DNA of 37,711 bases from Rhodospirillaceae bacterium (GTDB lineage Bacteria; Pseudomonadota; Alphaproteobacteria; Rhodospirillales; Rhodospirillaceae): the NCBI GenBank assembly GCA_019694335.1, contig JAIBCD010000029.1:1-37711 (forward strand), given 5' to 3'. Numbering within the stretch: position 1 is the first letter of the stretch; every line of letters starts with the position of its first letter. A program made the translations under genes and the position numbers. Below are positions 17,017-36,434 of the stretch, piece after piece. Under the pieces are notes generated by a model, which worked only from the letters and a program-made list of their open reading frames with translations, had not been told where the DNA came from and ran no database searches.

Positions 17017-17466
17017 TTAGCGGAAGCCGGCCTTGTCCGGGCCGCTCACGGGAAAGCGCCCGCCGAACGGTGTCGCCGGCAGCCAGGGCGTTATCACAAG
17101 GGGCGCGTCGAAGACGGCGATTTCGCCGGGCCCCGTGATCGCGACTTCCTCGAGCGCGGCGTGCAGCTCGATCCCGGCCACGTTCACCCGTTCGTAAATC
17201 TTCGCGCGCGCCGCGCGCTGACGCGGCAGCATGAATTGGCTGAACAGCACGATGCCGCGCAGTGCCGGCGCCTCCTCCAACACCGCGTTCAACATCATGA
17301 AACTGCCCAGGATGGAGCCCTCGGTGGCGCTCAGCAGGTAGGGCAGGCCCTTGCGCTTGCAGTAATCGCGCACCACCAGGTTCTGGACTTTGTGGGGGTA
17401 GACCGTGCCGTTCACCGGTTGGCTGGTGATATAGCCGCGGTAGCCCCGCGCGTCGGGCTCATGCAT
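17017..17466 (-). CDS. Sporadic carbohydrate cluster protein, LIC12192 family (149 aa)
   Basis: The sequence GYRGYITSQPVNG near the start, then QNLVVRDYCKRKGLPYLLSATE and LRGIVLFSQFMLP, is the signature I know from TIGR04323. That family is named after Leptospira LIC12192 and is found in patchily distributed sugar-biosynthesis loci. Its biochemical role is unknown. No signal peptide or membrane segment is visible, so it is cytoplasmic. The start ATG overlaps the end of the oxygenase gene by eight bases (ATGCATGA), with no ribosome site of its own, so translation is probably coupled. The C-terminal 30 residues (VFDAPLVITPWLP...) are Pro/Gly-rich and may be an extension. The partner gene and the divergent aminotransferase operon place it in glycan synthesis. 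Confidence 0.85.
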   Translation of the reverse strand: MHEPDARGYRGYITSQPVNGTVYPHKVQNLVVRDYCKRKGLPYLLSATEGSILGSFMMLNAVLEEAPALRGIVLFSQFMLPRQRAARAKIYERVNVAGIELHAALEEVAITGPGEIAVFDAPLVITPWLPATPFGGRFPVSGPDKAGFR

Positions 17467-18265
17467 GCGGCAGCACCGGCATGTCGAACGACAGACCGAC
17501 CTGCGAGGCCGGCTTGATCTCGACCGGCGTGAAATAGTCGCCGAGCCTCTTGTTGGCATAGGGCGTGAACAGTCCCTTGAAGCGCATGTTGAAGCTCCAG
17601 CGCGTGGTGGCTTCGCGGTTGACGCGGTTGCCGTGCATGACCGTGGGCGTGAACAACAATACGTTGCCGTAATCGATATCGACCCAGGTCAGCTCCGGTT
17701 CCACCGCCTTGAACAGGCCTTCGATGCTCTGGCTTTCGAATTCATTCAGCCGGGCACGCCACTTGCGGTCGTTTTCAGGCGGCAGCAGGAACATGGTTTT
17801 GGTGCGCCGGCAGTCCACCAGCGGAATCCACAACACCACCTCGAACGGCGAGCATTCGGACCCCCAGGTGTCGGAGTGGAGCGGCAAGAGCGAGCTGTCG
17901 TCCTGGGGCAATTGGACGCTGAGCCCGATACTGCGTTGCATGGCCAGCTCGTTGCCGACAATGGCCTCGATCATGCGCCGCCCGCAGGCCAGATAGGCCG
18001 GCCGGAACGCCGGATCGGCCAGCAGGGCCTCCAGCACGGCGAGGCGCAAGGCATTGAGGCCGGACACCCGCACCCGCTCGTGAATGGTATCCAGGAATTG
18101 GCCTATATCCGCCGGCAGGGCGGTTTCCAGCACCCGCGCGGCGGCTTGGGCCGTCGCCAGGCGCAAGCTGTCCAAGGCCGCCCGATCCTCGGCCGGAAAA
18201 ACCACATACCCCGCATCCAGAAAGCGCGCGCCGGCCGTGTCCACGTTCCCGCTCAATCCCGTCAT
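17459..18265 (-). CDS. Sporadic carbohydrate cluster 2OG-Fe(II) oxygenase (268 aa)
   Basis: The protein matches the pattern of TIGR04324, the oxygenase that accompanies LIC12192-family proteins. The iron ligands are His130 and Asp132 (LPLHSDTWGS) and His211 (VMHGNRVN). Arg222 in TTRWSFNMRFK is placed to hold 2-oxoglutarate. FEVVLWIPLVDC and LFTPYANKRLGDYF are also characteristic. The likely reaction is hydroxylation or oxidation of a sugar or nucleotide-sugar in the cytoplasm, by inference from the neighbourhood. An in-frame GTG at 18298 is a possible earlier start. The ATG at 18265 was preferred, with AGGAC just before it, but spacing is short. It is the first gene of a two-gene minus-strand operon and diverges from the E1/aminotransferase operon. 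Confidence 0.85.
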   Translation of the reverse strand: MTGLSGNVDTAGARFLDAGYVVFPAEDRAALDSLRLATAQAAARVLETALPADIGQFLDTIHERVRVSGLNALRLAVLEALLADPAFRPAYLACGRRMIEAIVGNELAMQRSIGLSVQLPQDDSSLLPLHSDTWGSECSPFEVVLWIPLVDCRRTKTMFLLPPENDRKWRARLNEFESQSIEGLFKAVEPELTWVDIDYGNVLLFTPTVMHGNRVNREATTRWSFNMRFKGLFTPYANKRLGDYFTPVEIKPASQVGLSFDMPVLPHA

Positions 18266-18428
18266 GTCCTGGTCTACTCTTGTCCTGGCCCAAACCACCC
18301 CGTTCTTCTACCCGGACGGGGCTCCCAAGGGTAGCACGCGCCGCTTGCAAGTCGATGGTATTAGCCGCATTTTGGCCGCTTCGCGACCCGTCCCTGGGCA
18401 CCAGCAGGCTGAAACCCCAACCAACCAC
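18266..18428. promoter_or_regulatory. Divergent promoter region of the sporadic carbohydrate cluster
   Basis: These 163 bases separate the oxygenase and E1 alpha starts and must hold both promoters unless they lie in the coding regions. I found no consensus promoter and no good dyad, and the E1 alpha ATG has no clear ribosome site. Confidence 0.35.
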
Positions 18429-19400
18429 ATGACAGAGATCGCCTCCAACGACTTGCGGGCCCTTTTCCGCGACGTCTTGCGCATCCGCATGGTCGAGGAG
18501 GCCATCGCCGAGCGCTACGCCGAGCAGGAAATGCGCTGCCCGGTGCATCTGTCCATCGGCCAGGAGGCGGCGGCTGTCGGCGTGTGCGCGGCGCTCGACA
18601 AGGACGACCTCGTGGTCAGCGGCCACCGCAGCCACGCCCACTACCTCGCCAAGGGCGGGGATCTGAAGAAGATGATCGCCGAACTCTACGGCCGCGCCAC
18701 GGGCTGCACCGGCGGGCGCGGCGGCTCCATGCACCTGGTCGACCCGGCCTGCGGCTTCCAGTGCGCCCTGCCGATCGTCGGCGGTTCCATCCCCATCGGC
18801 GTCGGCCTGGCCCTGGCGCTCAAGCAGGCCCAACGGCCGCAGGTGGTGGGGATTTTCGTGGGTGACGCCACCATCGAGGAAGGCGTGTTCCACGAGAGCG
18901 CCAACTTCGCGGCGGTCCACCGCCTGCCCGTGGTCTTCGTGTGCGAGAACAATCTGTATTCCGTTTACACCCACCTTTCCGACCGGCAGCCGGACCGCCC
19001 GCTCGCCGACCTCGCGCGCGGCCACGGCATGCCCGTCTGGCGCGGCGACGGCAACGACCTGGGCCAGGTTCTCGCCCAGTCCCGTGAAGCCGTGGCCCAC
19101 GCGCGCGCCGGCCAGGGCCCCGTCTTCCTCGAGTTCACCACCTACCGCTGGCGCGAGCACTGCGGCCCGAACTACGACAACCACATCGGCTACCGGACCG
19201 AGGAGGAATTCCAGTCCTGGGTGCCCAAGGATCCGATGGCGCAACTCGCCGCCAAGCTGCGCGCGGCCGGGCAATTGACGGCGGCGGACGAGGAGCGCCT
19301 GCGCGGGGAGCTGGCGGCCGAAATCGCCGCCGCGTTCGCCTTCGCCAAGGCCAGCCCTTACCCGGACGCCGCGACCGCGGGAGACAAGATCTATGCCTGA
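18429..19400 (+). CDS. Thiamine-diphosphate-dependent dehydrogenase E1 component, alpha subunit (323 aa)
   Basis: The sequence is that of the E1 alpha chain of pyruvate, acetoin or branched-chain 2-oxoacid dehydrogenases. It has HLSIGQEA near 40, GHRSHAHYLAKG, the GGRGGSMHL loop and the ThDP/Mg2+ motif starting GDATIEEG (145 on) and ending in CENN (172-175). E1 decarboxylates a 2-oxoacid and passes the acyl group to a lipoyl E2, but no E2 or E3 gene is in the window. Here it starts an operon of two DegT aminotransferases, two nucleotide-sugar dehydrogenase-like genes and a methyltransferase. The pair therefore probably makes or transfers a two-carbon or acyl unit for a sugar. The beta subunit gene overlaps by eight bases. 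Confidence 0.88.
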   Translation: MTEIASNDLRALFRDVLRIRMVEEAIAERYAEQEMRCPVHLSIGQEAAAVGVCAALDKDDLVVSGHRSHAHYLAKGGDLKKMIAELYGRATGCTGGRGGSMHLVDPACGFQCALPIVGGSIPIGVGLALALKQAQRPQVVGIFVGDATIEEGVFHESANFAAVHRLPVVFVCENNLYSVYTHLSDRQPDRPLADLARGHGMPVWRGDGNDLGQVLAQSREAVAHARAGQGPVFLEFTTYRWREHCGPNYDNHIGYRTEEEFQSWVPKDPMAQLAAKLRAAGQLTAADEERLRGELAAEIAAAFAFAKASPYPDAATAGDKIYA

Positions 19401-20475
19401 GGCCCGCGAGCTGACCTTCACCGCGGCGATCCGCGAGGCCTTCGACATCGCCATGAGCGACGACGACGGCGTGTTCGTCATGGGCGAAGGCGTGGCCGAC
19501 CCCAAGGCCGTATTCAACACGCTGGCGGGCCTGCCGGAGAAATTCGGCAAGCACCGCGTCATGGAAACGCCGCTGGCGGAGAACGCCATGACCGGCGTGG
19601 CGCTGGGCGCCGCGCAGCTCGGGCGCCGTCCGGTGCTGGTGCACCAGCGCGTCGACTTCGCCCTGCTGTCCCTCGACCAGATCATCAACAACGCCGCCAA
19701 GTGGCACTATATGTACGGCGGCATCTACAAGGCGCCAATCGTCATCCGCCTGATCATCGGCCGCGGCTGGGGCCAGGGTGCCCAGCATGCCCAGAGCCTG
19801 GAATCGGTGTTCGCGCACATCCCGGGCCTGAAGGTGGTGATGCCCGCCTGCCCGCAGGACGCCAAAGGCCTGATGCTGGCGGCGATCACCGACGACAACC
19901 CGGTCATTTACCTCGAACACCGCTGGCTGCACGGCACCCGTGGGCCGGTGCCCGAAGGCCGCTACCTTACCCCCATCGAACAGCCGCGCATTGCCCGCGC
20001 CGGCGGCAAGGTCACCATCGCGGCCACCTCCTACATGGTGGTCGAGGCCCTGAAGGCGGCCGAGATCCTCGATATCTTCGGCTGCCAGGCGGAGGTTCTG
20101 GATCTGCGCGTGCTGCGTCCGCTCGACCCGGCCATGGTGATTCAGTCGGTGCGCAAGACCGGACATCTGATCACGGTCGATACCGGCTGGGGGAAATACG
20201 GGATCGGGGCCGAGGTGGTCGCCGCGGTCGCCGAGCAGGCTTTTTCCGCCCTGGCCAAGCCGCCGGCCCGCCTCGCCACGGCCGACTATCCCTCGCCCAG
20301 CAGCATGGGGCTGATTCCGGGGTACTATCCGACCGCCGAAGCGATCATCGGCGAAGTCTTCAAGATGGGTCTCCTGACCCAGGATGCGTTCGACGGCGCG
20401 GTCGCGGCCTTGCGCGCCCAGAAGGGCACGCTGCCGATCGACGTTCCGGATCCGAAATTCACGGGCCCCTTCTAG
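19393..20475 (+). CDS. Thiamine-diphosphate-dependent dehydrogenase E1 component, beta subunit (360 aa)
   Basis: This is the transketolase-like beta chain of an E1 heterotetramer. METPLAENAMTGVALG holds the glutamate that activates ThDP, and the family segments RGWGQGAQHAQSLE and the C-terminal domain with DLRVLRPLD and TVDTGWGKYGIGAEV are present. In conventional E1 beta the segment before AQHSQ begins with GGG; here it reads GRGWGQGAQHAQ, close to the acetoin/branched-chain type. Start and previous stop share ATGCCTGA, so both chains are translated together in equal amounts. Some 25 extra residues after the usual end (LTQDAFDGAVAALRAQ...) form a helix plus tail. See the alpha subunit for the missing E2/E3 partners. 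Confidence 0.88.
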   Translation: MPEARELTFTAAIREAFDIAMSDDDGVFVMGEGVADPKAVFNTLAGLPEKFGKHRVMETPLAENAMTGVALGAAQLGRRPVLVHQRVDFALLSLDQIINNAAKWHYMYGGIYKAPIVIRLIIGRGWGQGAQHAQSLESVFAHIPGLKVVMPACPQDAKGLMLAAITDDNPVIYLEHRWLHGTRGPVPEGRYLTPIEQPRIARAGGKVTIAATSYMVVEALKAAEILDIFGCQAEVLDLRVLRPLDPAMVIQSVRKTGHLITVDTGWGKYGIGAEVVAAVAEQAFSALAKPPARLATADYPSPSSMGLIPGYYPTAEAIIGEVFKMGLLTQDAFDGAVAALRAQKGTLPIDVPDPKFTGPF

Positions 20476-20499
20476 GCCCACTGACAAAAGGTAATCGCC

Positions 20500-21603
20500 T
20501 TGAAAGTCCCCTATTCCTATCTGCCCCAGCAGTTCGCCGATCCCAGCGCCATCTTCGAGGAGTTGAAGGCGTTCATTCCGACCGGCGACTTCACCCTCGG
20601 CAAGCCGGTGCAGGAATTCGAACGCCGCTTCGCCGCCAAGGTCGGCGCCAAGCACGGCATCGGCGTGAACTCGGGCACCGACGCCATCAAGCTCGGCCTC
20701 AAGGCCGCCGGCGTTGGCCACGGCGACGAAGTCATCACCACCGCCAACACTTTTATTGCCACGGTCGGCGCGATCAACGAACTCGGCGCCAAGACCGTGT
20801 TCGTGGACTGCGACGACACCTTCTGCATGGATGTCAACCAGCTGGAAGCCGCGATCACCCCCAAGACCAAGGCGCTGTTGCCGGTGCATTTCACCGGCTA
20901 CATGACCGATATGCGCAAGGTCATGGAGATCGCCAAGCGCCACAAGCTGCCGGTGATCGAGGACGCCTGCCAGGGCATCCTGTCCGACATCGAGGGCAAG
21001 CGCTCGGGCACCTGGGGCCAGTGCGGCGCGTTCTCGCTGCACCCCCTGAAGAACCTGAACGTCTGGGCGGATTCCGGCATCATCGTCACCGACGACGACG
21101 CCTTCGCCGACAAGCTGCGCCTGTTGCGCAACCACGGCCTCGCCAACCGCGATGAAGTGGTGCTGCTCGGCTACAACTCGCGCCTGGACTCGGTCCAGGC
21201 CATCGTCGGCAACCATCTGATCAAGGACATGGACTGGATCACCGAGCAGCGCATCAAGAATGCCGGCGTGCTCGACAACCTGTTGTCCAAGAACAAGCAG
21301 ATCCGCCTGCCGCCGCGCCCCAAGGACATGCGGCTGGTCTATCACCTGTACATCGTATTCGCGGAGCGGCGCGATGAGCTGCTGCGCCACTGCATCGGCA
21401 AGGGCATCGAGTGCAAGGTGCACTACCCGATCCCGTTGTACCAGCAGGAAGGCCTCAAGCACCTCGGCTACAAGCCCGGCGCGTTCCCGGTCACCGACCG
21501 GCATACCAAGGAGATCATCACTTTCCCCGCCCACCAGCACCTGACGGCGGAGCAGCTGGCTTATATCGGAGACACCGTCCGGGAATTCTACGCCCATGGC
21601 TGA
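20500..21603 (+). CDS. DegT/DnrJ/EryC1 family sugar aminotransferase 1 (367 aa)
   Basis: PLP-dependent enzymes of this family move an amino group from glutamate or glutamine to a keto nucleotide-sugar. The PLP lysine is Lys184 in SLHPLKNLN and the pyridine-contacting Asp155 sits in EDACQG. NSGTDAIKLGLKAAG (57-71) is the phosphate-binding start. The typical EDAAQA reads EDACQG here and the Gly-Asp-Gly after the lysine reads WADSG, so the enzyme belongs to a divergent subgroup. The start is TTG with AAAAGG eight bases before it; no ATG fits. It overlaps the second aminotransferase gene by eight bases (ATGGCTGA). The keto-sugar substrate would come from a 4,6-dehydratase or dehydrogenase such as those encoded downstream. 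Confidence 0.88.
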   Translation: MKVPYSYLPQQFADPSAIFEELKAFIPTGDFTLGKPVQEFERRFAAKVGAKHGIGVNSGTDAIKLGLKAAGVGHGDEVITTANTFIATVGAINELGAKTVFVDCDDTFCMDVNQLEAAITPKTKALLPVHFTGYMTDMRKVMEIAKRHKLPVIEDACQGILSDIEGKRSGTWGQCGAFSLHPLKNLNVWADSGIIVTDDDAFADKLRLLRNHGLANRDEVVLLGYNSRLDSVQAIVGNHLIKDMDWITEQRIKNAGVLDNLLSKNKQIRLPPRPKDMRLVYHLYIVFAERRDELLRHCIGKGIECKVHYPIPLYQQEGLKHLGYKPGAFPVTDRHTKEIITFPAHQHLTAEQLAYIGDTVREFYAHG

Positions 21604-22714
21604 ACCGGCCCGCCGCACCGTCCCCTACATCAACCTGCAGGCGCAGTTCCAGGCGGAACGCGCCGAGATCATGGCGATCACCGAACGGGTGTTCGCCTCG
21701 GGCCAGTTCATCAACGGCCCCGAAGTGAGCGAACTGGAGGCGCGCTGGGCGGCCTATTGCGGCGTCAAGGAAGCCATCGCGGTCAATTCCGGCACCGATG
21801 CCCTGATCCTCGCCCTGCTCGCCGCCGGCATCGGGCGCGGCGACGAGGTCATCACCACACCCAACTCCTTCATCGCCTCGACCGCCGCGGTCTGCCATGT
21901 CGGCGCCAAGCCGGTGTTCGTCGATGTCCTGCCCGACCAGAACATCGATTGCGACAAGGCCGCCGCCGCCGTCACCGCCAAGACCAAGGCGATCATGCCG
22001 GTGCACCTGACCGGGCGCATGTGCGACATGGACAGGATCAAGGCGCTCGCGGAACGGCATAAGCTCGTGATCATCGAGGACGCCGCGCAATCGATCGGGT
22101 CGGCCTTCAAGGGCAAGAAGAGCGGCGCGGTGGGCGACTACGGCTGCTTCTCGTGCCATCCGCTCAAGAACCTCAACGCCGCCGGCGACGCCGGGATGCT
22201 CACCACCAACGACAGCGCCGCCGCCGCGCGCATGCGGCTAGTGCGCAACCACGGCCTTGTGGACCGCAACACCGTGTTGGAATGGGGCGTCAATTCGCGT
22301 CTCGACACCCTCCAGGCGGCTTACCTGTTGCATCGCCTGGGCAAGGTCGACGAGACCGCCGCCAAGCGCCGCGCCAATGCGGACCTTTACCGCCGCCTGC
22401 TCGACCCGGCGCATGTATTCGCACCCCCTTGCCGGCCGGAGGAACTGAACTCGTTCCACACCTTCGTCGTGCAGGTGGACCGCCGCGACGCGTTGCAGGC
22501 TTATCTCGGCACGCACGGCGTGGGCACCGCGATCCATTACCCGATCCCGATCCACCTGCAGCCGGCGGCCAAGGCGCTGGGACACAAGCCCGGCGACTTC
22601 CCCGTCGCCGAGCGCCAGGCGGCGCGTATCCTGACCCTGCCCGTGCACCAGTTCCTCGCCGAGGATGACGTCCGTTATGTGGCGGGCCTGGTGAACCGGT
22701 TTTTCAAGCCCTAG
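21596..22714 (+). CDS. DegT/DnrJ/EryC1 family sugar aminotransferase 2 (372 aa)
   Basis: This second PLP sugar aminotransferase is clearly related to its neighbour but not a recent copy. Lys191 in SCHPLKNLNAAGDAG binds PLP, Asp162 in EDAAQSIGS contacts the pyridine nitrogen, and NSGTDALILALLAAGIG (64-80) starts the PLP site. The GDAG after the lysine is the usual family form, unlike in enzyme 1. The common subgroup of FdtB/QdtB-type 3-aminotransferases shares the TPNSFIAS and PVHLTG segments, so amination at C3 or C4 of a nucleotide-sugar is possible but unproven. Two different aminotransferases side by side suggest either a di-amino sugar or two amino sugars. The GGGAA before the overlapping start is the only ribosome-site candidate. 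Confidence 0.88.
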   Translation: MAEPARRTVPYINLQAQFQAERAEIMAITERVFASGQFINGPEVSELEARWAAYCGVKEAIAVNSGTDALILALLAAGIGRGDEVITTPNSFIASTAAVCHVGAKPVFVDVLPDQNIDCDKAAAAVTAKTKAIMPVHLTGRMCDMDRIKALAERHKLVIIEDAAQSIGSAFKGKKSGAVGDYGCFSCHPLKNLNAAGDAGMLTTNDSAAAARMRLVRNHGLVDRNTVLEWGVNSRLDTLQAAYLLHRLGKVDETAAKRRANADLYRRLLDPAHVFAPPCRPEELNSFHTFVVQVDRRDALQAYLGTHGVGTAIHYPIPIHLQPAAKALGHKPGDFPVAERQAARILTLPVHQFLAEDDVRYVAGLVNRFFKP

Positions 22715-22729
22715 ATCCGGAACAGACGC

Positions 22730-23731
22730 GTGAGCGAACTTACCCGCATCGCGGTGATCGGCAGCACGGCCTTCTCGGCCTCCGACTTCATCGACTACGC
22801 CCTCGAGAATCCGGGCAATACCGTCCTTGGCATCAGCCGTTCGCCGGAGGCCACGCCGGTGATGCTGCCGCACCTGCGCCACGGCACCGGCCGCTACCGC
22901 TTCGCGCAGCTGCATCTGGTCAAGGATTCCGAGAAGGTCATTTCGGCCCTCAAGGACTTCCGCCCCCACTATGTCGTGAATTTCGCGGCCCAGGGTGAAG
23001 TCAGGACCAGTTTCGACCACCCCATCGAGCACTTCGAGACCAATACATTGGCCATGGTGAAACTGACCACCGCGCTGCGGAAGATGGAGGGCCTCAAGCG
23101 CTATCTCCATATTTCCACGCCCGAAGTTTACGGCAGCGCGGCCGACGGCGCGGTGCGCGAAGGCGCGGTCATGAACCCCAGCTCGCCCTATGCGGCTTCC
23201 AAGGGCGCGGCCGACCTGTACCTCAACGTCCTCAGCAAGACGCTGGGCTTTCCGGTGACCACCATCCGCGCGTCCAATGTCTACGGCGCGCACCAGCAGC
23301 TCTACCGGATCATTCCGCGCACCGTGATCTACTACAAGCTCGGCAAGACCCTGAAACTCGACGGCGGCGGCGTGGCGGTGAAATCCTTCATCCACATCCG
23401 CGATATTTCCAAGGGCGAATACCTGGCGATGACCAAGGGCCGCGCCGGCGAGGTGTACCACCTGTCGCCGGATCGGGGCGTGTCCATCCGGCATGTGGTG
23501 GAAACTATCTGCCGCGAGATCGGCGCGGATTTCTCGAAGTTCGTCGAGGTCGGCCCGGAACGCCCCGGCCAGGACGCGGCCTACATCCTCGACTCCTCCA
23601 AGGCCCGGAGCGAACTGGGTTGGGCGCCGACCATCGGCTTTGACGAAGGCGTGCGCGGCGTGTGCCGGTGGATCGAGGCCAACTGGGACGCCATCAAGAC
23701 GATGCCCCACGACTACATTTTCGCCGAATAA
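22730..23731 (+). CDS. NAD(P)-dependent epimerase/dehydratase, extended SDR (333 aa)
   Basis: The sequence is an extended short-chain dehydrogenase close to dTDP-glucose 4,6-dehydratases and related nucleotide-sugar enzymes. STPEVYG (129-135) and Y154-x-x-x-K158 are the catalytic region, and RPGQDAAYILDSSKARSELGW is the typical sugar-binding end. Two features are odd. The Rossmann loop reads GSTAFSAS instead of GxxGxxG, so NAD binding may be altered. The STDEVYG of true 4,6-dehydratases has Pro131 for the catalytic Asp, so a plain 4,6-dehydration is doubtful. The start is GTG with a weak GGA-type site 15 bases after the aminotransferase stop. It probably epimerises or otherwise modifies the nucleotide-sugar handled by the two aminotransferases. 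Confidence 0.85.
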   Translation: MSELTRIAVIGSTAFSASDFIDYALENPGNTVLGISRSPEATPVMLPHLRHGTGRYRFAQLHLVKDSEKVISALKDFRPHYVVNFAAQGEVRTSFDHPIEHFETNTLAMVKLTTALRKMEGLKRYLHISTPEVYGSAADGAVREGAVMNPSSPYAASKGAADLYLNVLSKTLGFPVTTIRASNVYGAHQQLYRIIPRTVIYYKLGKTLKLDGGGVAVKSFIHIRDISKGEYLAMTKGRAGEVYHLSPDRGVSIRHVVETICREIGADFSKFVEVGPERPGQDAAYILDSSKARSELGWAPTIGFDEGVRGVCRWIEANWDAIKTMPHDYIFAE

Positions 23732-23745
23732 CCGGGACATACCCC

Positions 23746-24402
23746 ATGCCTTTCGCCGATGTCATGCGCCGCTACCCCAAGGCCAAGCGGAACTACGACG
23801 ACCGGGCCAAGCGCATCACCGAGGAGCAGCGCGCCATCGCGCGCCAGTTCGGCAAGGACTTCTTCGACGGCGACCGCCTCTATGGCTACGGCGGGTACAA
23901 GTACGACGGCCGCTGGAAGCCGGTAGTGCAGGATTTCGCCGATCACTACGGCCTGACCAATCAGTCCGCCATCCTCGACATCGGCGCGGCCAAGGGATTC
24001 ATGGTGCGGGATCTCATCGAACTTCTGCCCGGCGCCAACGTGCGCGGGATCGACATCTCGGACTATGCGGTGGCGAACGCCGACCCGGTGGCGAAGCCGT
24101 TCCTGCAGGTAGCCGACTGTGAGTCCCTGCCCTTTCCGGACAAGAGCTTCGACCTGGTCATCTCCATCAACACCGCGCACAACCTGCCGCTGGACCGTTG
24201 CCGCACAGCGCTCAAGGAGATGATGCGCGTGAGCCGCAAGCACGCCTTCGTGATCCTGGACGCCTGGCGCAACGACCTGGAGAAAGAGCGCCTGGGCAAG
24301 TGGAACCTGACCGCCAAGACCACCATGAGCGTGGACGACTGGATCAAAGTGTTCGGTGAAGTCGGATACACCGGCGACTGGGATTGGTTCATCTGCGAAT
24401 GA
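23746..24402 (+). CDS. Class I SAM-dependent methyltransferase (218 aa)
   Basis: The SAM site is AILDIGAAKGFM (75-86) with Asp103 in GIDIS. DLVISINTAHNL near 138 is the post-core strand. The segment FFDGDRLYGYGGYKYDGRW before the core recurs in methyltransferases of O-antigen and capsule loci, and the whole protein is small and cytoplasmic. By position it methylates a nucleotide-sugar or a related intermediate on O, N or C; the target is unknown. The ATG at 23746, 14 bases after the epimerase stop, fits the start of the family. Confidence 0.85.
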   Translation: MPFADVMRRYPKAKRNYDDRAKRITEEQRAIARQFGKDFFDGDRLYGYGGYKYDGRWKPVVQDFADHYGLTNQSAILDIGAAKGFMVRDLIELLPGANVRGIDISDYAVANADPVAKPFLQVADCESLPFPDKSFDLVISINTAHNLPLDRCRTALKEMMRVSRKHAFVILDAWRNDLEKERLGKWNLTAKTTMSVDDWIKVFGEVGYTGDWDWFICE

Positions 24403-24409
24403 CCCGCTC

Positions 24410-25267
24410 ATGAAAGTAGCGGTGATCGGCGCCAACGGGTTCCTGGGGCGCGCCCTGACCGCGACGCTGGCGCGCGAGGGCATCCCCGCGATCCGCGCTT
24501 CCCATCACGGCGCCGCCGACATACCCCTCGATTTCGAAAAGCCGTTCGACGGCCCGGTCGCCGATATGGCCGGCGCCAGCCACGCCGTGATCTGCAGCGC
24601 CATCAGCAATATCGACCGCTGCTTCGAGCACCCGGCCGAGACCGGCCGGTTCAATGTCGCGCGTACGCAGGCCCTGATCGCGGCGCTGCACGCACGCGAC
24701 ATCGTGCCGGTATTCTGTTCCAGCGACGTGGTGTTCAGGGGCGACCGCGGCGCCTATGGCGAATATGAAGCGCGGGAGCCGACGACGGTTTATGGACAGC
24801 AAAAACGCGCGGTCGAGGACTATCTTCTGGCTGGCGCACGCCCGCATCTGATCGTGCGTCTGAGCAAGCTCTACAGCACAGATGAAACGGATACCTCGCC
24901 CATCCGCCAGACCATCGCGCGACTGCGCTCCGGGCAGCGGGTGCTGGCGGCGACGGATGCGATGATCTGCCCGACCAACGTCATGGACATCGCGCAAGGG
25001 ATCGTGCGCCTGATGGCCGGCGGGGCGGCCGGTCCCTTCCACATGGGCCCGCCCCGGGACGGATGGTACACGCGCTATACCCTGGCGATGACCCTGGCCG
25101 CGCGCCTGAACGCCGAAAACCTGGTGGACGCTTGCCTGTCGGCGGACCTTCCGGTGAAGGATCCCCGCCCCCGGGATTGCTCGCTGCTCAACGACCGGCT
25201 GCGCGCGCAGACCGGCTGGCAGCCGCGTCCGTTCTCTGCCGATCTCGATACGGTGATGCCGCGCTAG
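24410..25267 (+). CDS. RmlD-like sugar-nucleotide reductase, atypical SDR (285 aa)
   Basis: The protein resembles dTDP-4-dehydrorhamnose reductase (RmlD) and related reductases. The NAD(P) loop is MKVAVIGANGFLG, the catalytic Ser lies in FCSSDVVF (102-109) and Y128-x-x-x-K132 is in TVYGQQK. The usual sugar-binding end with DCSLLNDRLRAQTGW is present. It would reduce a 4-keto sugar on its nucleotide, one of the later steps of such pathways. The start ATG follows the methyltransferase stop after seven bases and has no distinct ribosome site, so translation is probably coupled. It is the last gene of the seven-gene operon and converges with the glycosyltransferase gene after 16 bases. Confidence 0.83.
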   Translation: MKVAVIGANGFLGRALTATLAREGIPAIRASHHGAADIPLDFEKPFDGPVADMAGASHAVICSAISNIDRCFEHPAETGRFNVARTQALIAALHARDIVPVFCSSDVVFRGDRGAYGEYEAREPTTVYGQQKRAVEDYLLAGARPHLIVRLSKLYSTDETDTSPIRQTIARLRSGQRVLAATDAMICPTNVMDIAQGIVRLMAGGAAGPFHMGPPRDGWYTRYTLAMTLAARLNAENLVDACLSADLPVKDPRPRDCSLLNDRLRAQTGWQPRPFSADLDTVMPR

Positions 25268-25283: not shown

Positions 25284-26381
25284 TCATATGAATGTGCACT
25301 TGTGCCGCCCCGGCCGGGGGAACGTGAAGCTGTTGGGCCGAGGCGCCGACGACAGGGGCGTCGGCTCCCGCCATCCCTGCGTATCGCTGCTTACGTCCGC
25401 GATCCGGTCGATCAGGGCGATAAGCTCCGGCGCTCCGTTCTTGTAGAGTTTGCAGCCGCGCATCGCGAGTTCCTTGAGCACCAGCTTGTTGAGATCCATA
25501 TCGACATAGCGTTGCTGGTTGATGGTCTGGCCGCTTGCTGTCACCACGTTGATCGTCCGCGCGACATCCCGGTCCTTGAACAGGCAGTGGTCGACCATGT
25601 CCATGAGCGCCAATGGCACGTCAAAGGCCTCCGCTACCGCTGCCGGCCCCGACGGGCCGGAAAACATGAAACGCGCGCGGCTGATGGCATAGGCCTGCAG
25701 CATCGATGAGTCCGGCATGGCCGACAAATCGACGTAGCCTTTACGGGCGGGATACGGCGTCATGCCCGGGTGACCAAGGCGCACGACCTGCCCACCCAGC
25801 TTATCGAGAACATGCTCGACGCCGATCCGGAAGATAGCGGGGTCGCCGTCACGGAAGTTGACGACGGTGGGTTTCTCGTCGAAGCCCGGTTCGCGGCAGT
25901 GCATCGCGCAGAACCAGCTGTCCTTGGAAAGGCCGAGCTCCAGGAGTTGGGTCTCGCAGGCCTGCGCAATATCCGCGGGAAAGGTCAGATACGCGAACCG
26001 GTCCAGCAGGGCGAGATTGAAGGCCGCGGACATGGTCTCGGAAACGATCAAATGCTGCTCTTGCAGATTGGCCTCGAACCAGCCCTTGATGTGCTCCTGC
26101 GGCACCGGCGAGGAGCAGTTGATCAGTTCGAAACTCGGCAGCATTTCGCCGCGCGGCACCCTGAATTCATTGTGGATATTCGCGAGTTTCACCAGCTTTG
26201 ACTTGAAAGCCATGTCGTCGCGGTAGAGCAGCGTGACGATCTTGTGGTCGAAGCAGTCGGCCACCGAATTGAGGAAAAACAGGCTCGACGCGAAATCCCC
26301 GAACGATCGGGCATTGATCTGCGCGAGGATCTTCATGGGGAAGTGCGGGCTTGCCCCAAGTTTCCCCATGTGACCGTACAT
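25284..26381 (-). CDS. Putative glycosyltransferase of the TIGR04372 type (365 aa)
   Basis: The central 110 residues follow the pattern of the TIGR04372 family: FCAMHCREPGF, then NFRDGDP, VVRLGHPGMTPYPARKGYVDLS and ARFMFSGPSGPAAVAEAF near the nucleotide-sugar pocket, as in GT-B fold enzymes. Family members sit in surface polysaccharide loci and are presumed glycosyltransferases. The usual SGxSxxP is SGPSGPA here. There is no signal peptide and it is probably cytoplasmic or membrane-peripheral. The ATG at 26381 was chosen because GGAAGGA lies about eight bases before it; other in-frame starts are at 26402 (GTG), 26369 and 26336. A Pro/Ser/Arg-rich tail of about 35 residues ends the protein. 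It would add the locus sugar to a growing glycan. Confidence 0.75.
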   Translation of the reverse strand: MYGHMGKLGASPHFPMKILAQINARSFGDFASSLFFLNSVADCFDHKIVTLLYRDDMAFKSKLVKLANIHNEFRVPRGEMLPSFELINCSSPVPQEHIKGWFEANLQEQHLIVSETMSAAFNLALLDRFAYLTFPADIAQACETQLLELGLSKDSWFCAMHCREPGFDEKPTVVNFRDGDPAIFRIGVEHVLDKLGGQVVRLGHPGMTPYPARKGYVDLSAMPDSSMLQAYAISRARFMFSGPSGPAAVAEAFDVPLALMDMVDHCLFKDRDVARTINVVTASGQTINQQRYVDMDLNKLVLKELAMRGCKLYKNGAPELIALIDRIADVSSDTQGWREPTPLSSAPRPNSFTFPRPGRHKCTFI

Positions 26382-26649: not shown

Positions 26650-28209
26650 ATGACTGAGAATTCTCCGCCGGTCACCGAAACGCTGCGCGCAAAAATCAAA
26701 TCTCTCAGTGACTTAGGGGCAGTCTGCGCGGATGCCAGGGCGAAAGGCCTGCGGGTTGTGCATGCGCATGGCGTGTTCGACCTGCTCCATCTCGGCCACG
26801 TCCGCCATCTCGAGGCCGCCCGGAAGTTGGGCGATCTGCTGGTCGTCACCGTCACCGCCGACAGCTACGTCAACAAGGGGCCGGGCCGCCCGGTTTTTCT
26901 CGACGGCCTGCGCTGTGAAATGCTCGCCGCCCTGTCCTGCGTCTCCTATGTCGCCGTCAACAACAGCCCGTCCGCCGAGACCGCGCTCAAGGCCGTGCGC
27001 CCCACGATGTACGTGAAGGGGTCCGATTACGCCAACCCCGAGGACGACATCACCGGCAAGATCACCGCCGAACGCAAACTGGTGGAATCCCTCGGCGGAC
27101 ACATGGTGTTCACCAATGAGATCACGTTCAGCTCCTCTCACCTCACCAACAAGTACCTCAACCTTTACGAAAAGCCGCTGCAGGAACACCTGGAATACCT
27201 GCGTGGCCGGAACGCGCTCGATTACATCACCAAAAAATGCAACGAGGCGGCCAACCTCAAGGCGCTGATCATCGGCGACGCCATCATCGACGAATACAAA
27301 TACGTCAAACCGTTGGGGCGCCCCTCGAAGGAACCCATTCTCGCGACCCAGTTCATCAACGGCGAAAAATTCGCGGGCGGCGTGATCGCGGCGGCCAACC
27401 ACCTCGCGAGCTTCTGCAAATCGGTGGATGTCATCACCGCACTGGGATTCGAGAATACCGAAGAAGAGCTGATCCGCAGCACCTTGAAGGCGAATACCAC
27501 CCTGCACGTGGTTTACCGGAAGGAAGGGCCCACCACCCTGAAAACCCGGTTCGTGGCCACCGGCTACGACATTCGCAAGCTGTTCGAAGTCTACTCCATG
27601 AACGATGCGCCCTTCGAAGGCGCCGAACTGAACGCACTCAACGCGCTGATCGAGGAGAAAATCGACAGCTACGACGTGGTTGTGGTCAACGACTTCGGCC
27701 ATGGCCTGCTCGCCAAGTCCACCATCGACCTGTTGTGCAAGCGGGCCCGCTTCCTGGCCGTGAACACGCAGGCCAACAGCGGCAACTACGGCTACAACGT
27801 CATCACGCGTTATCCGCGCGCCGACTATATCTGCCTCGACACCAATGAAGCGCGCCTGGCGACCCGCGAAAACCACGTCGACATAAACCGGATCGTGTTC
27901 GAGCAGCTGCCGTCCATGGTGGCCTGCGAGAAGTTCATCGTGACTCTTGGCAAGCGCGGCGCCGTCGCGTGGGACAAAAAGGACGGCGCCACGGAGGTTC
28001 CCGCGCTCACCTCCACCATCGTCGACACCGTCGGCGCGGGCGATGCGTTCTTCGCCGTGACCGCGCCCTTCGCCGCGCTGGGCGTGCCCATGGCGATCCT
28101 GGCCTTCCTGGGCAATGCCGCTGGCGCCATCAAAGTCGGCATCGTCGGGCACCGCTCGTCGGTGGAACGGGTTCCGTTCCTGAAGTTCATCACCGCCTTG
28201 ATGAAGTAA
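26650..28209 (+). CDS. HldE/RfaE-like bifunctional protein, nucleotidyltransferase then PfkB kinase (519 aa)
   Basis: Residues 1-165 are a cytidylyltransferase-like domain with HGVFDLLHLGH (His47 and His50 of the HxGH motif). The C-terminal part from about 225 is a PfkB/ribokinase-fold carbohydrate kinase with VDTVGAGDAFFA (Asp465 as catalytic base). HldE of E. coli phosphorylates heptose 7-phosphate at C1 and then makes ADP-heptose, but its kinase comes first and the transferase last. Here the order is reversed and about 60 residues join the domains. The enzyme probably activates a sugar phosphate to a nucleotide-sugar. No gmhA or gmhB is seen, so heptose is not certain. It starts at ATG with AGGA five bases upstream. 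Confidence 0.85.
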   Translation: MTENSPPVTETLRAKIKSLSDLGAVCADARAKGLRVVHAHGVFDLLHLGHVRHLEAARKLGDLLVVTVTADSYVNKGPGRPVFLDGLRCEMLAALSCVSYVAVNNSPSAETALKAVRPTMYVKGSDYANPEDDITGKITAERKLVESLGGHMVFTNEITFSSSHLTNKYLNLYEKPLQEHLEYLRGRNALDYITKKCNEAANLKALIIGDAIIDEYKYVKPLGRPSKEPILATQFINGEKFAGGVIAAANHLASFCKSVDVITALGFENTEEELIRSTLKANTTLHVVYRKEGPTTLKTRFVATGYDIRKLFEVYSMNDAPFEGAELNALNALIEEKIDSYDVVVVNDFGHGLLAKSTIDLLCKRARFLAVNTQANSGNYGYNVITRYPRADYICLDTNEARLATRENHVDINRIVFEQLPSMVACEKFIVTLGKRGAVAWDKKDGATEVPALTSTIVDTVGAGDAFFAVTAPFAALGVPMAILAFLGNAAGAIKVGIVGHRSSVERVPFLKFITALMK

Positions 28210-28311
28210 ACGACACGAAATAGGCGGTGACTCGTTAAGGTCTTCGCGATAGCTTTTCGCGATGTCCGGTCGCGTCGAAAAATCAGTCAACCTATTGAAA
28301 AGAATGTAAAA

Positions 28312-29310
28312 ATGGCCTCAAAAACCCGCAACGTGATGGTCACCGGCGGCGCCGGTTACGTGGGCGCGCGCCTGGTTCCGCGGCTGCTGGCGGAGGGCCA
28401 CGGCGTCACCGTGCTCGACCTCTACATGTTCGGCGACGACGTGCTGGACGAGGTGAAGGACCACCCACGCCTGCGCCAGATCAAGGGCGACCTGCGCAAC
28501 ATCGAAACCGTGAAGCAGGCGCTCCAAGGCTGCGACACCGTCATCCACCTCGCCTGCATCTCCAACGACCCGTCATTCGAGCTCGACCCCACCCTCGGGC
28601 GCTCGATCAACTTCGATGCCTTCCGCCCGCTGGTTCAGGCCGCGAAGAAGGCCGGCGTCAACCGGTTCATCTATGCCTCGTCATCATCGGTCTACGGCGT
28701 GAAGGCCGATCAGAACGTCACCGAGGACTTGGCGCTCGAGCCGCTGACCGACTACTCCAAGTTCAAGGCCATGTGCGAGACCGTTCTGGAAGAAGAACGC
28801 GAACCCGGCTTTGTCACGCTGACCATTCGGCCCGCGACCGTGTGCGGCTATTCGCCGCGCCAGCGCCTGGACGTGATCGTCAACATCCTCACCAGCCATG
28901 CGGTCGTGAACGGCAAGATCAAGGTGTTCGGCGGCGCGCAGCTGCGCCCCAACCTGCACATCGAGGATATGGTCGACCTCTATCTGCTGTGCCTGCAGCT
29001 GCCGGACGAAAAGATCGACGGGCGCATTTTCAACGCCGGGTACGAGAACATCAAGGTCTCCGACCTGGCCGAGCGCGTGCGCGGGGTGGTGGGCGATGTG
29101 GCGGTGGAAGTGCTGCCGACGGACGATCCCCGCTCCTACCACGTATCGTCGGCGCTCATTCAGCGCGAGCTTGGCTTCCAGCCCAAGCACACGGTGGAAG
29201 AGGCCATCCGCGACCTGGTGAAGGCCTTCAAGGACGGCCGGCTGCCCAACGCCATGACCGACAAGCGCTACTACAACATCAAGACCATGCAGTCGATCAA
29301 GCTGACCTAG
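28312..29310 (+). CDS. NAD-dependent nucleotide-sugar epimerase/dehydratase (332 aa)
   Basis: This extended SDR has an intact cofactor loop (VTGGAGYVG, residues 10-18), Ser124 in YASSSSVYG and Y148-x-x-x-K152. RPATVCGYSPRQRLD and the C-terminal DKRYYNIKTM are segments I know from epimerases of LPS and capsule loci. It would epimerise, dehydrate or oxidise a nucleotide-sugar. A 102-bp space separates it from the kinase gene, so it may have its own promoter. The ATG is preceded by AAAAGAATG without a clear ribosome site. Its stop lies in a 16-bp tandem duplication, and the gene is convergent with the FkbM gene. Confidence 0.87.
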   Translation: MASKTRNVMVTGGAGYVGARLVPRLLAEGHGVTVLDLYMFGDDVLDEVKDHPRLRQIKGDLRNIETVKQALQGCDTVIHLACISNDPSFELDPTLGRSINFDAFRPLVQAAKKAGVNRFIYASSSSVYGVKADQNVTEDLALEPLTDYSKFKAMCETVLEEEREPGFVTLTIRPATVCGYSPRQRLDVIVNILTSHAVVNGKIKVFGGAQLRPNLHIEDMVDLYLLCLQLPDEKIDGRIFNAGYENIKVSDLAERVRGVVGDVAVEVLPTDDPRSYHVSSALIQRELGFQPKHTVEEAIRDLVKAFKDGRLPNAMTDKRYYNIKTMQSIKLT

Positions 29311-30200: not shown

Positions 30201-30307
30201 CTAGAGCATGTTAGGCCGAAGTGGAAACCGGTTCGGCCGCTCAACATGCTACCAAACAAAAACCTAGAGTGTGTTTCCGATTCAAAGAATCGGAAACACA
30301 CTCTAGG
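30201..30307. repeat. RIME1-like intergenic element, two palindromes (107 bp)
   Basis: The first palindrome (30205-30250) has an 8-bp outer stem AGCATGTT/AACATGCT and a 7-bp inner stem GGCCGAA/TTCGGCC around AGTGGAAACCGG-like sequence. A short ACCAAACAAAA linker follows, then a second perfect palindrome with 21-bp arms (30263-30283 and 30287-30307) around AAA. Both begin CTAGAG. The size near 108 bp, the two palindromes joined by AAACAAA and the AGTGG-AACCGGTT core match RIME1 elements of Rhizobium relatives as I remember them. Only one copy is in the window. Confidence 0.75.
30258..30307 (-). terminator. Intrinsic terminator of the radical SAM operon
   Basis: Read on the minus strand, the perfect 21-bp hairpin of 30263-30307 is followed at once by TTTTTGTTTGG (30262 downward). 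The TAG stop of the radical SAM gene (30303-30305) is inside the upper arm. The stem plus five consecutive T bases is a strong intrinsic terminator, here supplied by the second palindrome of the repeat element. Confidence 0.8.
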
Positions 30308-32216
30308 CCACGATCTTGGGCTTGCGCCGGCGATAGAGCTTTTCGATGTCGCGGTCGAGGGTGGCCGGGATCTCCGCCCGCAACCACGCCGGAGCCTGGG
30401 TGATGCCCGCCAGAACGAACATCTCGGGGAACTGGTTGGCCCGGTCGCGCCAGTAGGGCGATTCCTCGGCGAGCGTGATGAACCGGTCGCGGTAATGATC
30501 CGCCTTGGCGCGGTCGCCGGCACTGCGATAGGCGTGCGCCAGGGTCGCCGCCATGGAGGCGTCGTAGGGATAGCCGGCGTGGATCGATTCCAGCCAGTGG
30601 ATGAGCTTGCTGAGATTGCCGCCCGGCTTGAAATTGAGATTGCGCAGGAAATTGCAAACGAAGTTGAAGGCGAACCAGATCTCCTTCTGCTGCTCGCGGT
30701 CCGGCACCACGTCCTCGGGCAGCGAGAACACATCCCAACCCGTGCGCAGCACCGGAGCGTTGGGATCGAAGTTATAGCCGAATTCGCCGCGATCGACCGC
30801 GCGCGCGGGGTTCAACAGCTTGGAGTAGCCCTCTTCTTCGGTGCGGCTGTCGCCCAGCGACTGGAACACCGAGAACATGTCGGTACCCTTGAGCGGCTGG
30901 CAGATATAGAAGCTGGACCAGTCGTATTCGAGCTCGCAGGCGAAATCGAAGCTGTCCATCATCTGGCCGAAGGTCTCGTTCGGGAAGCCGATGATGAAAT
31001 TGGCGCTGACCAGAACCTCGGGATACTTGGCGAACAGCTTGCGCTTCACCCGCAGCTTGGGCTTGGTCGTGGGCTTCTTGATGACATGCAGCATCTCCTC
31101 GTTGCCGGATTCAATGCCGATCTTGAATGCCTTCAAGCCCGACTTGACCATCCACTCCATGACGTCGTCGTCGATGGCGACCGCGATCAGGCCGTTCTGC
31201 GCGGTCCATTCCAGGCCCGGCACCTGCTCGGCGATGCCCTTGAACAGTTCAACGGCGCGCTTCGGATCCCACAACAGGTCGTCATCCAGCCAATCGATGT
31301 AGCGGATGCCCTTTTCCTGGACCAGGAACTTGATCTCGTCGATGACGTTCTGGACCGTGCGCTGACGGATGCCGAAACCGTTGAAGTTGCGGACCGTGCA
31401 GAAGGTGCAGCGCGCGCGGCAGCCGCGATTGCTGAGCGCGGTCGCGAACGGCTTGTCGGAACCGACATAGCGGGAAAACGGCCCCAGCGAGCCGTAGCGG
31501 TTATAGCTGGCGATGTCGATCAGGTCGTAGACGCCGGTGATGTCGAAATCCATCGGCACTTCGCTGGGCGCGGTGCCGAATTCATAGACCTCGCCGTCGT
31601 GCAACACCGCCGCGCCCACGGGAATTTCGGCGGCGCTGCCGGCCAGGCAGTTGCGCAGCATGGCCGCGAACTGGGTTTCGCTTTCCTTACGGAAAACGAT
31701 ATCGCACAAGCCGTCGCGCAGGATTTCCTGGTAATCGTAGGTCGCTTGAACGCCACCGGTCATGACCGCGAGGTTCGGGAATTCCCGCCGGACGAAATCG
31801 CTCACTTCCTTGAAGCACGACTTGGTGGTGCCGAACATATAGGTGATGCCGACAATCGGCGCGGCGCAGCTGGTGATCGCTTCGCGCACCAGATCCTGCC
31901 AGACGAGATACTGGAAATTCTCGTCGTCGTTACTCAACCGCAGGAGTTCCTGGTTGAGGTCGATGAGATGGATCTTGATGTCGGGCGCGACTTCGCGCGC
32001 GGCCGCCGCGATGTAGAGCAGGCCCATCGGCGGGAAATTGAAGTAGCCGCCGCGCCGGGCCGTGTTCACGTCGAAGACGTTGCCGGGAACCAGCGGCGGC
32101 TGGATCAGGACCAGCTCACGCGGCCCGGCCAGGCGGAACTTCTCCATGAAGGCGCCCAATACGGCGCGGTGCGTATCGGCCTTCTTGTCGATTGTTGCCA
32201 TGGCGGAACGGGGCAT
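30303..32216 (-). CDS. Cobalamin-binding-domain radical SAM protein (637 aa)
   Basis: The N-terminal half (about 35-220) is a B12-binding-like domain of class B radical SAM enzymes, with LIQPPLVPG, GLLYIAAAAREV and MTGGVQATYDYQEILRDG. The radical SAM core has the [4Fe-4S] site Cys266-x3-Cys270-x2-Cys273 (NRGCRARCTFC) and later GLKAFKIGIESGNEEML and FIIGFPNET segments. The last 100 residues have TPR-like helices (ATLAHAYRSAGDRAKADHY). Such enzymes methylate unreactive carbons or rearrange carbon skeletons in natural products. In a glycan locus a C-methylation or ring change of the sugar is possible. The ATG at 32216 has AAGGAT about ten bases upstream. It is the last gene of the minus-strand operon and ends at the terminator. 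Confidence 0.85.
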   Translation of the reverse strand: MPRSAMATIDKKADTHRAVLGAFMEKFRLAGPRELVLIQPPLVPGNVFDVNTARRGGYFNFPPMGLLYIAAAAREVAPDIKIHLIDLNQELLRLSNDDENFQYLVWQDLVREAITSCAAPIVGITYMFGTTKSCFKEVSDFVRREFPNLAVMTGGVQATYDYQEILRDGLCDIVFRKESETQFAAMLRNCLAGSAAEIPVGAAVLHDGEVYEFGTAPSEVPMDFDITGVYDLIDIASYNRYGSLGPFSRYVGSDKPFATALSNRGCRARCTFCTVRNFNGFGIRQRTVQNVIDEIKFLVQEKGIRYIDWLDDDLLWDPKRAVELFKGIAEQVPGLEWTAQNGLIAVAIDDDVMEWMVKSGLKAFKIGIESGNEEMLHVIKKPTTKPKLRVKRKLFAKYPEVLVSANFIIGFPNETFGQMMDSFDFACELEYDWSSFYICQPLKGTDMFSVFQSLGDSRTEEEGYSKLLNPARAVDRGEFGYNFDPNAPVLRTGWDVFSLPEDVVPDREQQKEIWFAFNFVCNFLRNLNFKPGGNLSKLIHWLESIHAGYPYDASMAATLAHAYRSAGDRAKADHYRDRFITLAEESPYWRDRANQFPEMFVLAGITQAPAWLRAEIPATLDRDIEKLYRRRKPKIVA

Positions 32217-35604: not shown

Positions 35605-36434
35605 GGCCGCGCAACCTCGGAAGGAGTCCTTGCGTCCGGAATCCAGTCGTTGAGTCTTCGCCGCAACTTATACATGTCACCGGTCTGGTGCAATTTGTCG
35701 GCCAGGCGCGCGTCGGTCCACGCATCGTGCGCGGCGCTGATATTGCGGCCACCGACCACCGATTTGGGCTGGCCGATGATCCAGTCGAGGCAGTCGATCA
35801 CCCGGCCCACCTGAACGAACGCCCCGCTGTCCAATTTCTCCCGGGTCCGCGCCAAGGCCGCGCCCGCGCGTTCGCCGGCATCCAGGGTCTGGCGGTGGAT
35901 CTTGGTGTCGACCCAGCCCGGCCCGACGATGACGATGCGGGCGTCCGGCAGTTCGGCGTCCAGCAGTTCGCACAGTTTGATCAAGCCGAGCTTGCCGACG
36001 AGTTCGGCCGAGAAATTGACCGGGGCGTCGTTCACGCCGGCGCCGGCGAACAGGATGATGACCGGACTTCCACTCCGGCGGCGGGTCGGCAGCAGCGCGT
36101 GGATCGTCCGCGCATGGCTGACCAGGTTCAATTCCACCGACGCCGCCCAGGCATCGATATCCGTCGTCTCGAACGGCCCGATCGGTTCGAGCGTCGCGGC
36201 CGCGAGCAGCGCCACGTCCCAATTGGCCGGGAGCCGCGCCCCCACCTGCTTGAGCGCGGCGGCGTCATCCAGATCGAGTTGCTGAAGAGCGGCGCCGGCG
36301 TCCACTAGCTCCCGGACCCGCGCGCCTTCCGTGCGATAAGTGCCGGACACCGCCCAGCCCCGTTCGAGCCAGCGGCGGGTGGCCGCGTGCGCGATGTCGC
36401 TCGATGCACCGATGACGACCACGGTCTTAGTCAC
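35601..36434 (-). CDS. SDR-fold protein lacking the catalytic Tyr (277 aa)
   Basis: A Rossmann start IGASSDIAHAATRRWLERG and the overall layout show the short-chain dehydrogenase fold. The catalytic set is missing: the Tyr-x-x-x-Lys site reads ELVGK (Glu144, Lys148), and the usual active-site Ser strand reads FAGAG. The protein may therefore have lost redox activity and serve as a binding or scaffold protein, or use another mechanism. GLIKLCELLDAEL after the Lys is a segment I know from sugar-locus SDRs. The start is GTG with GGAG about ten bases upstream, 50 bases after the radical SAM gene. It overlaps the ThDP gene by four bases. Confidence 0.75.
   Translation of the reverse strand: MTKTVVVIGASSDIAHAATRRWLERGWAVSGTYRTEGARVRELVDAGAALQQLDLDDAAALKQVGARLPANWDVALLAAATLEPIGPFETTDIDAWAASVELNLVSHARTIHALLPTRRRSGSPVIILFAGAGVNDAPVNFSAELVGKLGLIKLCELLDAELPDARIVIVGPGWVDTKIHRQTLDAGERAGAALARTREKLDSGAFVQVGRVIDCLDWIIGQPKSVVGGRNISAAHDAWTDARLADKLHQTGDMYKLRRRLNDWIPDARTPSEVARP

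Follow-up and report, generated by a model that had tools for sequence, protein, structure and literature searches.

A sugar cluster of a Rhodospirillaceae bacterium in which an E1 pair seems to stand in for a split transketolase

The window analysed here is a stretch of 37,711 nucleotides from a Rhodospirillaceae bacterium (assembly GCA_019694335.1, contig JAIBCD010000029.1, positions 1 to 37,711). It carries a carbohydrate gene cluster in which two marker genes, for a LIC12192-family protein (A) and a 2-oxoglutarate (2OG)-Fe(II) oxygenase (B), lie beside genes for E1 alpha and E1 beta. Within it, one carbon-adding enzyme appears to have been replaced by another of a different type. At the level of gene content, our comparisons show a core, made up of a nucleotidyltransferase-sugar kinase fusion (K), an extended short-chain dehydrogenase/reductase (SDR; L), related SDRs and in some relatives a GmhA-like gene, that combines with one of two thiamine diphosphate (ThDP) modules, a split transketolase (TK) or E1, which did not co-occur in any locus sampled through K. 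We give a probability of roughly 0.55 to a reading in which the product of the locus is a branched, nucleotide-activated amino sugar destined for a surface glycan, and E1 and TK serve as alternative two-carbon (C2) branching modules on the shared core. The combination of E1 with the marker pair is exceptional rather than conserved, and looks like one that exposes a swappable carbon-branching step.

One core and two alternative modules

Gene presence was scored with profile models built for this work, at thresholds chosen in this analysis; a locus was called TK-type if either subunit exceeded 200 bits and E1-type if alpha exceeded 300 or beta exceeded 200 bits. The oxygenase set combined all matches above the cut-off from the phylum, order and class searches with the best 80 of 206 relatives found among genomes sampled at one per species, giving 137 loci; grouping at 97% identity left 105 distinct oxygenases. 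LIC12192 was present in 98 of these, a split TK (either subunit) in 77 and neither module in 26, while a sugar-type E1 was found in two only, the window and locus L084; a distant, fused E1 occurs in L069 and L081. A preliminary description of the window, made from the sequence alone, had made the pairing of E1 with the marker pair its key point and had named rarity of E1 beside the pair elsewhere as the outcome that would count against it. Rarity is largely what we found, the usual partner being the split TK. Clustering of the neighbouring genes recovered an SDR, K, a GmhA-like SIS protein, the SDR L, a HAD-like protein, an APH-like kinase and the split TK, followed by the oxygenase, LIC12192 and a methyltransferase, sometimes with a DegT pair in between. 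The labels GmhA-, APH- and HAD-like are our own: the first protein has an SIS_2 match of 50 bits, the second lacks any Pfam match, and the third has HAD/NT5C hits under cut-off. In L079 the split TK consists of PF00456 in one gene and PF02779 with PF02780 in the next. The fused E1 alpha-beta of L081 (650 residues; DegT pair adjoining, L081:2526-6693) lies in a locus with a divergent oxygenase gene, and no LIC12192 gene was found there.

We chose K as bait for a second survey because neither module then serves as the anchor. Of 385 class genomes, 52 yielded a total of 57 matches, and the window and 56 other regions were examined. TK was present in 30 of the 57 loci, E1 in 13, neither in 14 (eight of which are shorter than 15 kb) and both in none; the hypergeometric probability of no overlap is 8e-6 if the loci are treated as independent, uncorrected for kinship. 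On a tree of K from the 43 informative loci, parsimony requires at least nine changes between TK and E1, compared with a mean of 11.4 and a minimum of 7 for shuffled labels. The distribution is therefore not accounted for by one split in an ancestor. The APH-like kinase (17/30) and the HAD-like protein (16/30) accompany TK, and neither is above threshold in any of the 13 E1 loci, a bias expected if phosphosugar handling is needed by TK only. Nothing closely related to the TK C-terminal subunit is present in the genome of the window, where the best match, at 30%, lies in a 656-residue frame.

The third survey was anchored on E1. A class search with two E1 alpha sequences (A3) gave 44 matches of at least 334 bits, the next scoring 316. 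The top 39, including the window and L084, formed the E1-anchored set, and sequences from L235-L271 were added to broaden the E1 models; five further matches (334-345 bits) lie outside that set, two of which had entered through K (L298, L311). None of the 39 loci contains a split TK, and 37 lack the oxygenase pair, the exceptions being the window and L084. The E1 alpha/beta pair is a replacement module seen here mostly in loci without the oxygenase pair. Above threshold, K was found in nine of the 39 loci, L in eight, G (a further extended SDR) in eight, a methyltransferase in 12 and a DegT pair in seven, with weaker matches commoner; part of the sugar-type E1 family therefore shares the core genes.

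The order E1 alpha, E1 beta, DegT, DegT recurs in L236, L255, L257 and L298; a gap separates E1 beta from the DegT pair in L240, and DegT genes flank E1 in L243 and L247. In a tree of E1 beta, the 40 sugar-type sequences group as a single clade (support 0.995) that excludes three E1 betas from the same genome. The subclade that contains the window (nine loci, support 0.99) has the DegT pair in nine of nine; that of L242 lies some 10 kb off and is visible in the overlapping L306. Its sister clade has it in none of nine, three of them truncated: L250 and L262 end at E1 beta and L265 is a contig of 9.3 kb. In L274, also of the sister clade, a weaker DegT match (192 bits) lies about 10 kb away. 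A second clade holds L084 together with L235, L241, L244, L246, L248, L251, L252, L256 and L258-L260. Near some of its loci are weak matches to TPR/GT41 models, and flagellin-like genes lie near L252; these loci possibly belong to another branched-sugar or nonulosonate pathway.

The window as a hybrid locus

For A, B, K and L of the window, the nearest relatives come from TK-type loci (B 76% identical to its counterpart in L109, L 77% to that in L079), and G is closest to the TK-type L112. L109 and L110 contain the most similar oxygenases. The nearest relatives of Q, an acetolactate-synthase-like ThDP enzyme (33814-35604, minus strand), and R, the SDR paired with it (35601-36434, minus strand), come from E1-type loci. 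The DegT proteins resemble TK-type and E1-type loci alike, and E1 alpha and beta were not counted as evidence, their nearest relatives falling in E1-type loci by definition. L249 carries the run SDR10-K-L-E1 alpha-E1 beta-G-R-(gap)-Q-H, where H is the methyltransferase, and the E1 loci L263, L266 and L269 likewise contain Q and R relatives, so Q and R of the window belong to the set. By comparison, the window is a hybrid: it has the oxygenase/LIC12192 pair usual in TK-type loci together with E1 and a DegT pair, which on the best reading replaced the TK. The cluster boundary first drawn at 25267 was too narrow, as the conserved set includes the genes at 26650-29310 and 33814-36434.

All nine genes at 17017-25267 matched the families first assigned to them, by TIGR and Pfam models. 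On the minus strand, A (17017-17466; no Pfam family) has its likely start at 17466, where it overlaps the stop of B (17459-18298, likely start 18265 or 18298). If the oxygenase begins at the internal Met, a gap of 163 bp (18266-18428) separates it from E1 alpha. The seven plus-strand genes from E1 alpha to I are tightly packed, with overlaps of 8 bp or spacing of 7-24 bp. The earlier view of the nine as one functional set stands, although the divergent gap splits the oxygenase/LIC12192 pair from the E1 genes, which makes two transcription units and not one operon.

E1 alpha (18429-19400, likely start 18429; PF00676, 216 bits) is of the sugar-cluster type, contains the motif YRWREHCGPNYDNHIGYR and retains the ThDP motif GDA...NN. 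It scores below the NCBIfam pyruvate dehydrogenase cut-offs listed (283 against 394 and 197 against 411 bits), as does E1 beta (19393-20475; PF02779 and PF02780; 301 against 321 and 294 against 454 bits), which the tree places in the sugar-cluster type. The paralogous DegT/DnrJ aminotransferases E (20500-21603; PF01041, 343 bits; closest PDB sequence 3uwc, 393 bits) and F (21596-22714; PF01041, 379 bits) follow, and then G (22730-23731; PF16363, 155 bits), an extended SDR in which the loop GSTAFSASD replaces the usual glycine motif. This altered cofactor loop had been singled out as a feature of the window's epimerase; it is present, but is a family trait: of the 16 SDR-G relatives listed, 12 carry GS(N/T)(A/S)FS, a count that takes in the window and two duplicate loci, and four do not. 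In two relatives of G (L266, L269) no YxxxK was found. The S-adenosylmethionine (SAM) methyltransferase H (23746-24402, start taken from the translation; PF08241, 62 bits) and the RmlD-like reductase I (24410-25267; PF04321, 120 bits), weakly conserved with a best relative at 34%, complete the run.

Downstream on the plus strand are the two core genes. K (26650-28209; PF01467 and PF00294) is HldE-like with the domain order reversed, and TIGR02198 and TIGR02199 match it under cut-off; L (28312-29310) has relatives at up to 77% identity. Q carries a GDG...NN motif at residue 452, and its best PDB sequence match is 8rph (354 bits), identified in the relevant part of PMC12188165 as JanthE, a YerE-like enzyme; R is 52% identical to its relatives in L249 and L274, which come from one genome. 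Q thus resembles the YerE/JanthE-like carboligases of the yersiniose A type, from which the window differs in the accompanying E1 alpha/beta.

A proposed pathway and its rivals

The surveys show the exchange and the linkage of genes; the donor, acceptor, position and product in the following scheme are what we infer. K would activate a sugar phosphate and the SDRs would generate a keto sugar. E1 alpha/beta would decarboxylate pyruvate and add the acetyl carbanion to the ketone as a two-carbon branch, for which E2 would be unnecessary. The DegT pair may then aminate the ketone on the branch, another ketone or the two together, while H would methylate and the 2OG oxygenase with LIC12192 would hydroxylate or oxidize the sugar. 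TK-type relatives would place a hydroxyacetyl branch at the same position. The exchange of TK and E1 on one core fits such a common step, the addition of a two-carbon nucleophile to a keto sugar. The preliminary description had proposed an amino sugar carrying a carbon or acyl unit made by E1: a two-carbon unit is the best reading and has antibiotic-sugar precedent in the sections of PMC12247030 and PMC4802897 on which we draw, but an acyl unit is unlikely, since a scan of 19 proteins encoded at 17-37.7 kb (19 against NCBIfam, 11 against Pfam) revealed neither an E2 nor a lipoyl protein; in the left part of the window a single protein was covered.

E1-type and TK branching enzymes are known mainly from antimicrobial natural products, as outlined in parts of a 2025 review (PMC12247030). 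According to the same sections, E1-type enzymes attach pyruvate-derived C2 branches to keto sugars in aldgamycin and kibdelomycin, after which the branch ketone may be reduced, methylated, oxidized or, in kibdelomycin, transaminated. Passages of PMC4802897 describe E1-type branching by Plm8/Plm9 in paulomycin and in avilamycin, and part of PMC4753412 is also cited for the mechanism. The window shares with this alphaKADH2 group (AviB1/AviB2, Plm8/Plm9, KbDH-alpha/beta) an E1 pair in a sugar cluster with no E2 nearby, a likeness of context, and in the proposed scheme also the transaminated branch of kibdelomycin; those are antibiotic pathways, whereas here a core with an HldE-like K occurs in glycan-like loci. 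A role in transferring hydroxyacetyl onto a keto sugar has been proposed for the split-gene TKs of miharamycin and amipurimycin. The review sections treat this as still pending and list 13 putative ketone-accepting split TKs, every one from a Streptomycete and none yet tested in vitro (PMC12247030). Relatives of the window likewise have a split TK beside sugar SDRs, and the window has none. Bradyrhizose, made by an 11-gene operon in photosynthetic strains according to part of PMC4743980, was considered on account of the Bradyrhizobium loci L186 and L187 and set aside, as those loci carry an aminotransferase pair.

A wider version of the proposal is tentative. It would make TK and E1 interchangeable C2-branching modules on one surface-glycan nucleotide-sugar pathway in Alphaproteobacteria and beyond, the branch changing from hydroxyacetyl to acetyl and, in the lineage of the window, being transaminated to aminoethyl, with LIC12192 as a resolvase-fold partner of the oxygenase.

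Several observations weigh against C2 branching on a shared core. K is above threshold in only nine of the 39 E1 loci, so that the core link is partial, and the E1 beta clade of L084 adjoins more distant DegT and SDR genes. The changes on the K tree were counted without regard to branch supports. DegT is above threshold in four of the 30 TK-type K loci and missing from six of the 13 E1-type ones, H of the window is closest to proteins of L111 and L113, both of which lack either module, and the distant fused E1 of L069 stands alongside a TK. E1 and TK could also use different acceptors and merely share K and L.

Of the rival explanations, the one that survives best, though we consider it unlikely, is chain extension rather than branching, for which the octose and heptose pathways are the model: a ThDP enzyme would build a longer ketose phosphate, a GmhA-like enzyme would isomerize it and K would activate it, E1 giving the 1-deoxy analogue. 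TKs normally make ketose phosphates, the GmhA-like SIS gene sits between K and L in many relatives, and K resembles the kinase and nucleotidyltransferase domains of HldE, all of which count for it. Compared with the ADP-heptose pathway (GmhA, HldE, HldD), however, the domain order of K is reversed, the HldE equivalog model gives 150 against 521 bits, and ThDP and DegT steps are added. A 1-deoxyketose derived from pyruvate cannot isomerize to an aldose, which makes a swap of E1 and TK before the isomerase less likely. The GmhA-like gene is above threshold in 16 of 30 TK-type K loci against one of 13 E1-type loci (though with weaker matches in several of the latter), and the window is without one.

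It is also improbable that the region is a glycan island of unrelated, adjacent sugar operons, with E1-DegT and oxygenase-LIC12192 belonging to no common pathway. The divergence of the oxygenase pair from the E1 operon would suit this view, as would the scarcity of the pair with sugar-type E1 (2/105) and of E1 with the pair (absent in 37/39), and the auxiliary look of J, M, N and S. Against it, B, A, K, L, G and H occur together in the close relatives L078 and L079, while K, L, E1, G, R, Q and H occur together in L249, and the window is the union of the two without TK. That the E1 pair is a housekeeping 2-oxo acid or acetoin dehydrogenase, beside sugar genes by chance, is very unlikely: it matches Pfam E1_dh with the ThDP motif, and another E1 beta encoded in this genome is 45% identical to its beta subunit, but the same scan of 19 proteins revealed no E2, E3 or lipoyl protein, and the pair forms its own clade recurrent in sugar clusters, scores under the pyruvate dehydrogenase cut-offs and has an alpha tail motif that differs from that of human E1 alpha. 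C2 branching on a shared core remains the reading we prefer.

The marker pair and its wider setting

Both marker assignments held against the curated models. TIGR04323 matches A at 118.1 bits (cut-off 55) over profile positions 1-106 of 122, and TIGR04324 matches B at 276.7 bits (cut-off 150) over 3-246 of 248. The window thus agrees with the sporadic cluster of these families, in that both models pass and the genes are adjacent in a sugar cluster, and differs from it in having E1 alpha/beta where 77 of 105 loci have a split TK. Residues H141, D143, H222 and R233 of the oxygenase are unvarying across 36 sequences; we take them, by analogy, to be the HxD...H iron triad and the 2OG arginine. TIGR04323 is present in seven of 398 phylum genomes, and a TIGR04324 match above the cut-off occurs in 24 of the 297 genomes of the order and 29 of the 385 of the class. 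The best 80 of the 206 oxygenase relatives are mostly Rhodospirillales-like, including Azospirillum, Reyranella and Bradyrhizobium, with a few from Microcoleus, Geothrix, Chitinophaga, Myxococcales, Elusimicrobia and Gammaproteobacteria. The marker pair is therefore sporadic but not rare. A plasmid search with the oxygenase gave no match and a search of IMG/VR no confirmed match. A literature search on 'LIC12192' and 'sporadic carbohydrate cluster' found nothing, a result confined to those terms from which we make no wider claim about what is in print.

An AlphaFold model of LIC12192 (31 sequences) is a confident one, with a predicted local distance difference test score of 89.7 and a predicted TM-score of 0.83. 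In a Foldseek search of the PDB its top four matches were serine recombinase catalytic domains (probability 1.00; E 1.9e-3 to 5.3e-3, none at or below 1e-3; query TM-score 0.47-0.63), with other folds from rank 5. PF00239 was not among the Pfam matches of the 31 members at E ≤ 5, and hhalign against a three-sequence resolvase profile gave a probability of 0.4, so that homology to resolvases at the sequence level is unsupported by Pfam and by this small profile comparison. S15, by eye the residue nearest the recombinase nucleophile, is kept in 24 of 31 sequences. A recruited resolvase fold for LIC12192 is best regarded as a lead suggested by the model, not a result.

The remaining genes J, M, N and S look auxiliary. 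J (25284-26336, minus strand) is a TIGR04372 glycosyltransferase (71 bits, cut-off 45), and N (30303-32216, minus strand) a B12-binding radical SAM protein whose NCBIfam matches are all under cut-off, with relatives at 33-38% identity in several oxygenase loci. A second radical SAM protein, of a B12-binding-type family, lies at 36485-37699. Flagellin genes occur in eight of the 105 distinct oxygenase loci and a TPR/GT41 glycosyltransferase is above threshold in 11; in L083, L090, L095, L097, L103, L117 and L139 the sugar genes lie beside flagellin genes and a TPR/GT41 (FlmG- or OGT-like) glycosyltransferase. This suggests a flagellin-glycan role in those flagellin-adjacent lineages. NeuB was found in nine of the 12 genomes searched, including six of the seven picked as flagellin-adjacent, so we do not claim that the sugar is the flagellin glycan.

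The 77 oxygenase loci with a split TK, together with the repeated and exclusive exchange for E1, provide an independent genomic argument that the two modules share chemistry, and the split-TK loci offer many candidate branching enzymes outside Streptomyces. The little-known LIC12192 and 2OG oxygenase families gain a pathway context. The gene exchange hints at the role of the enzymes, and an untested idea about branched sugars thereby becomes testable.

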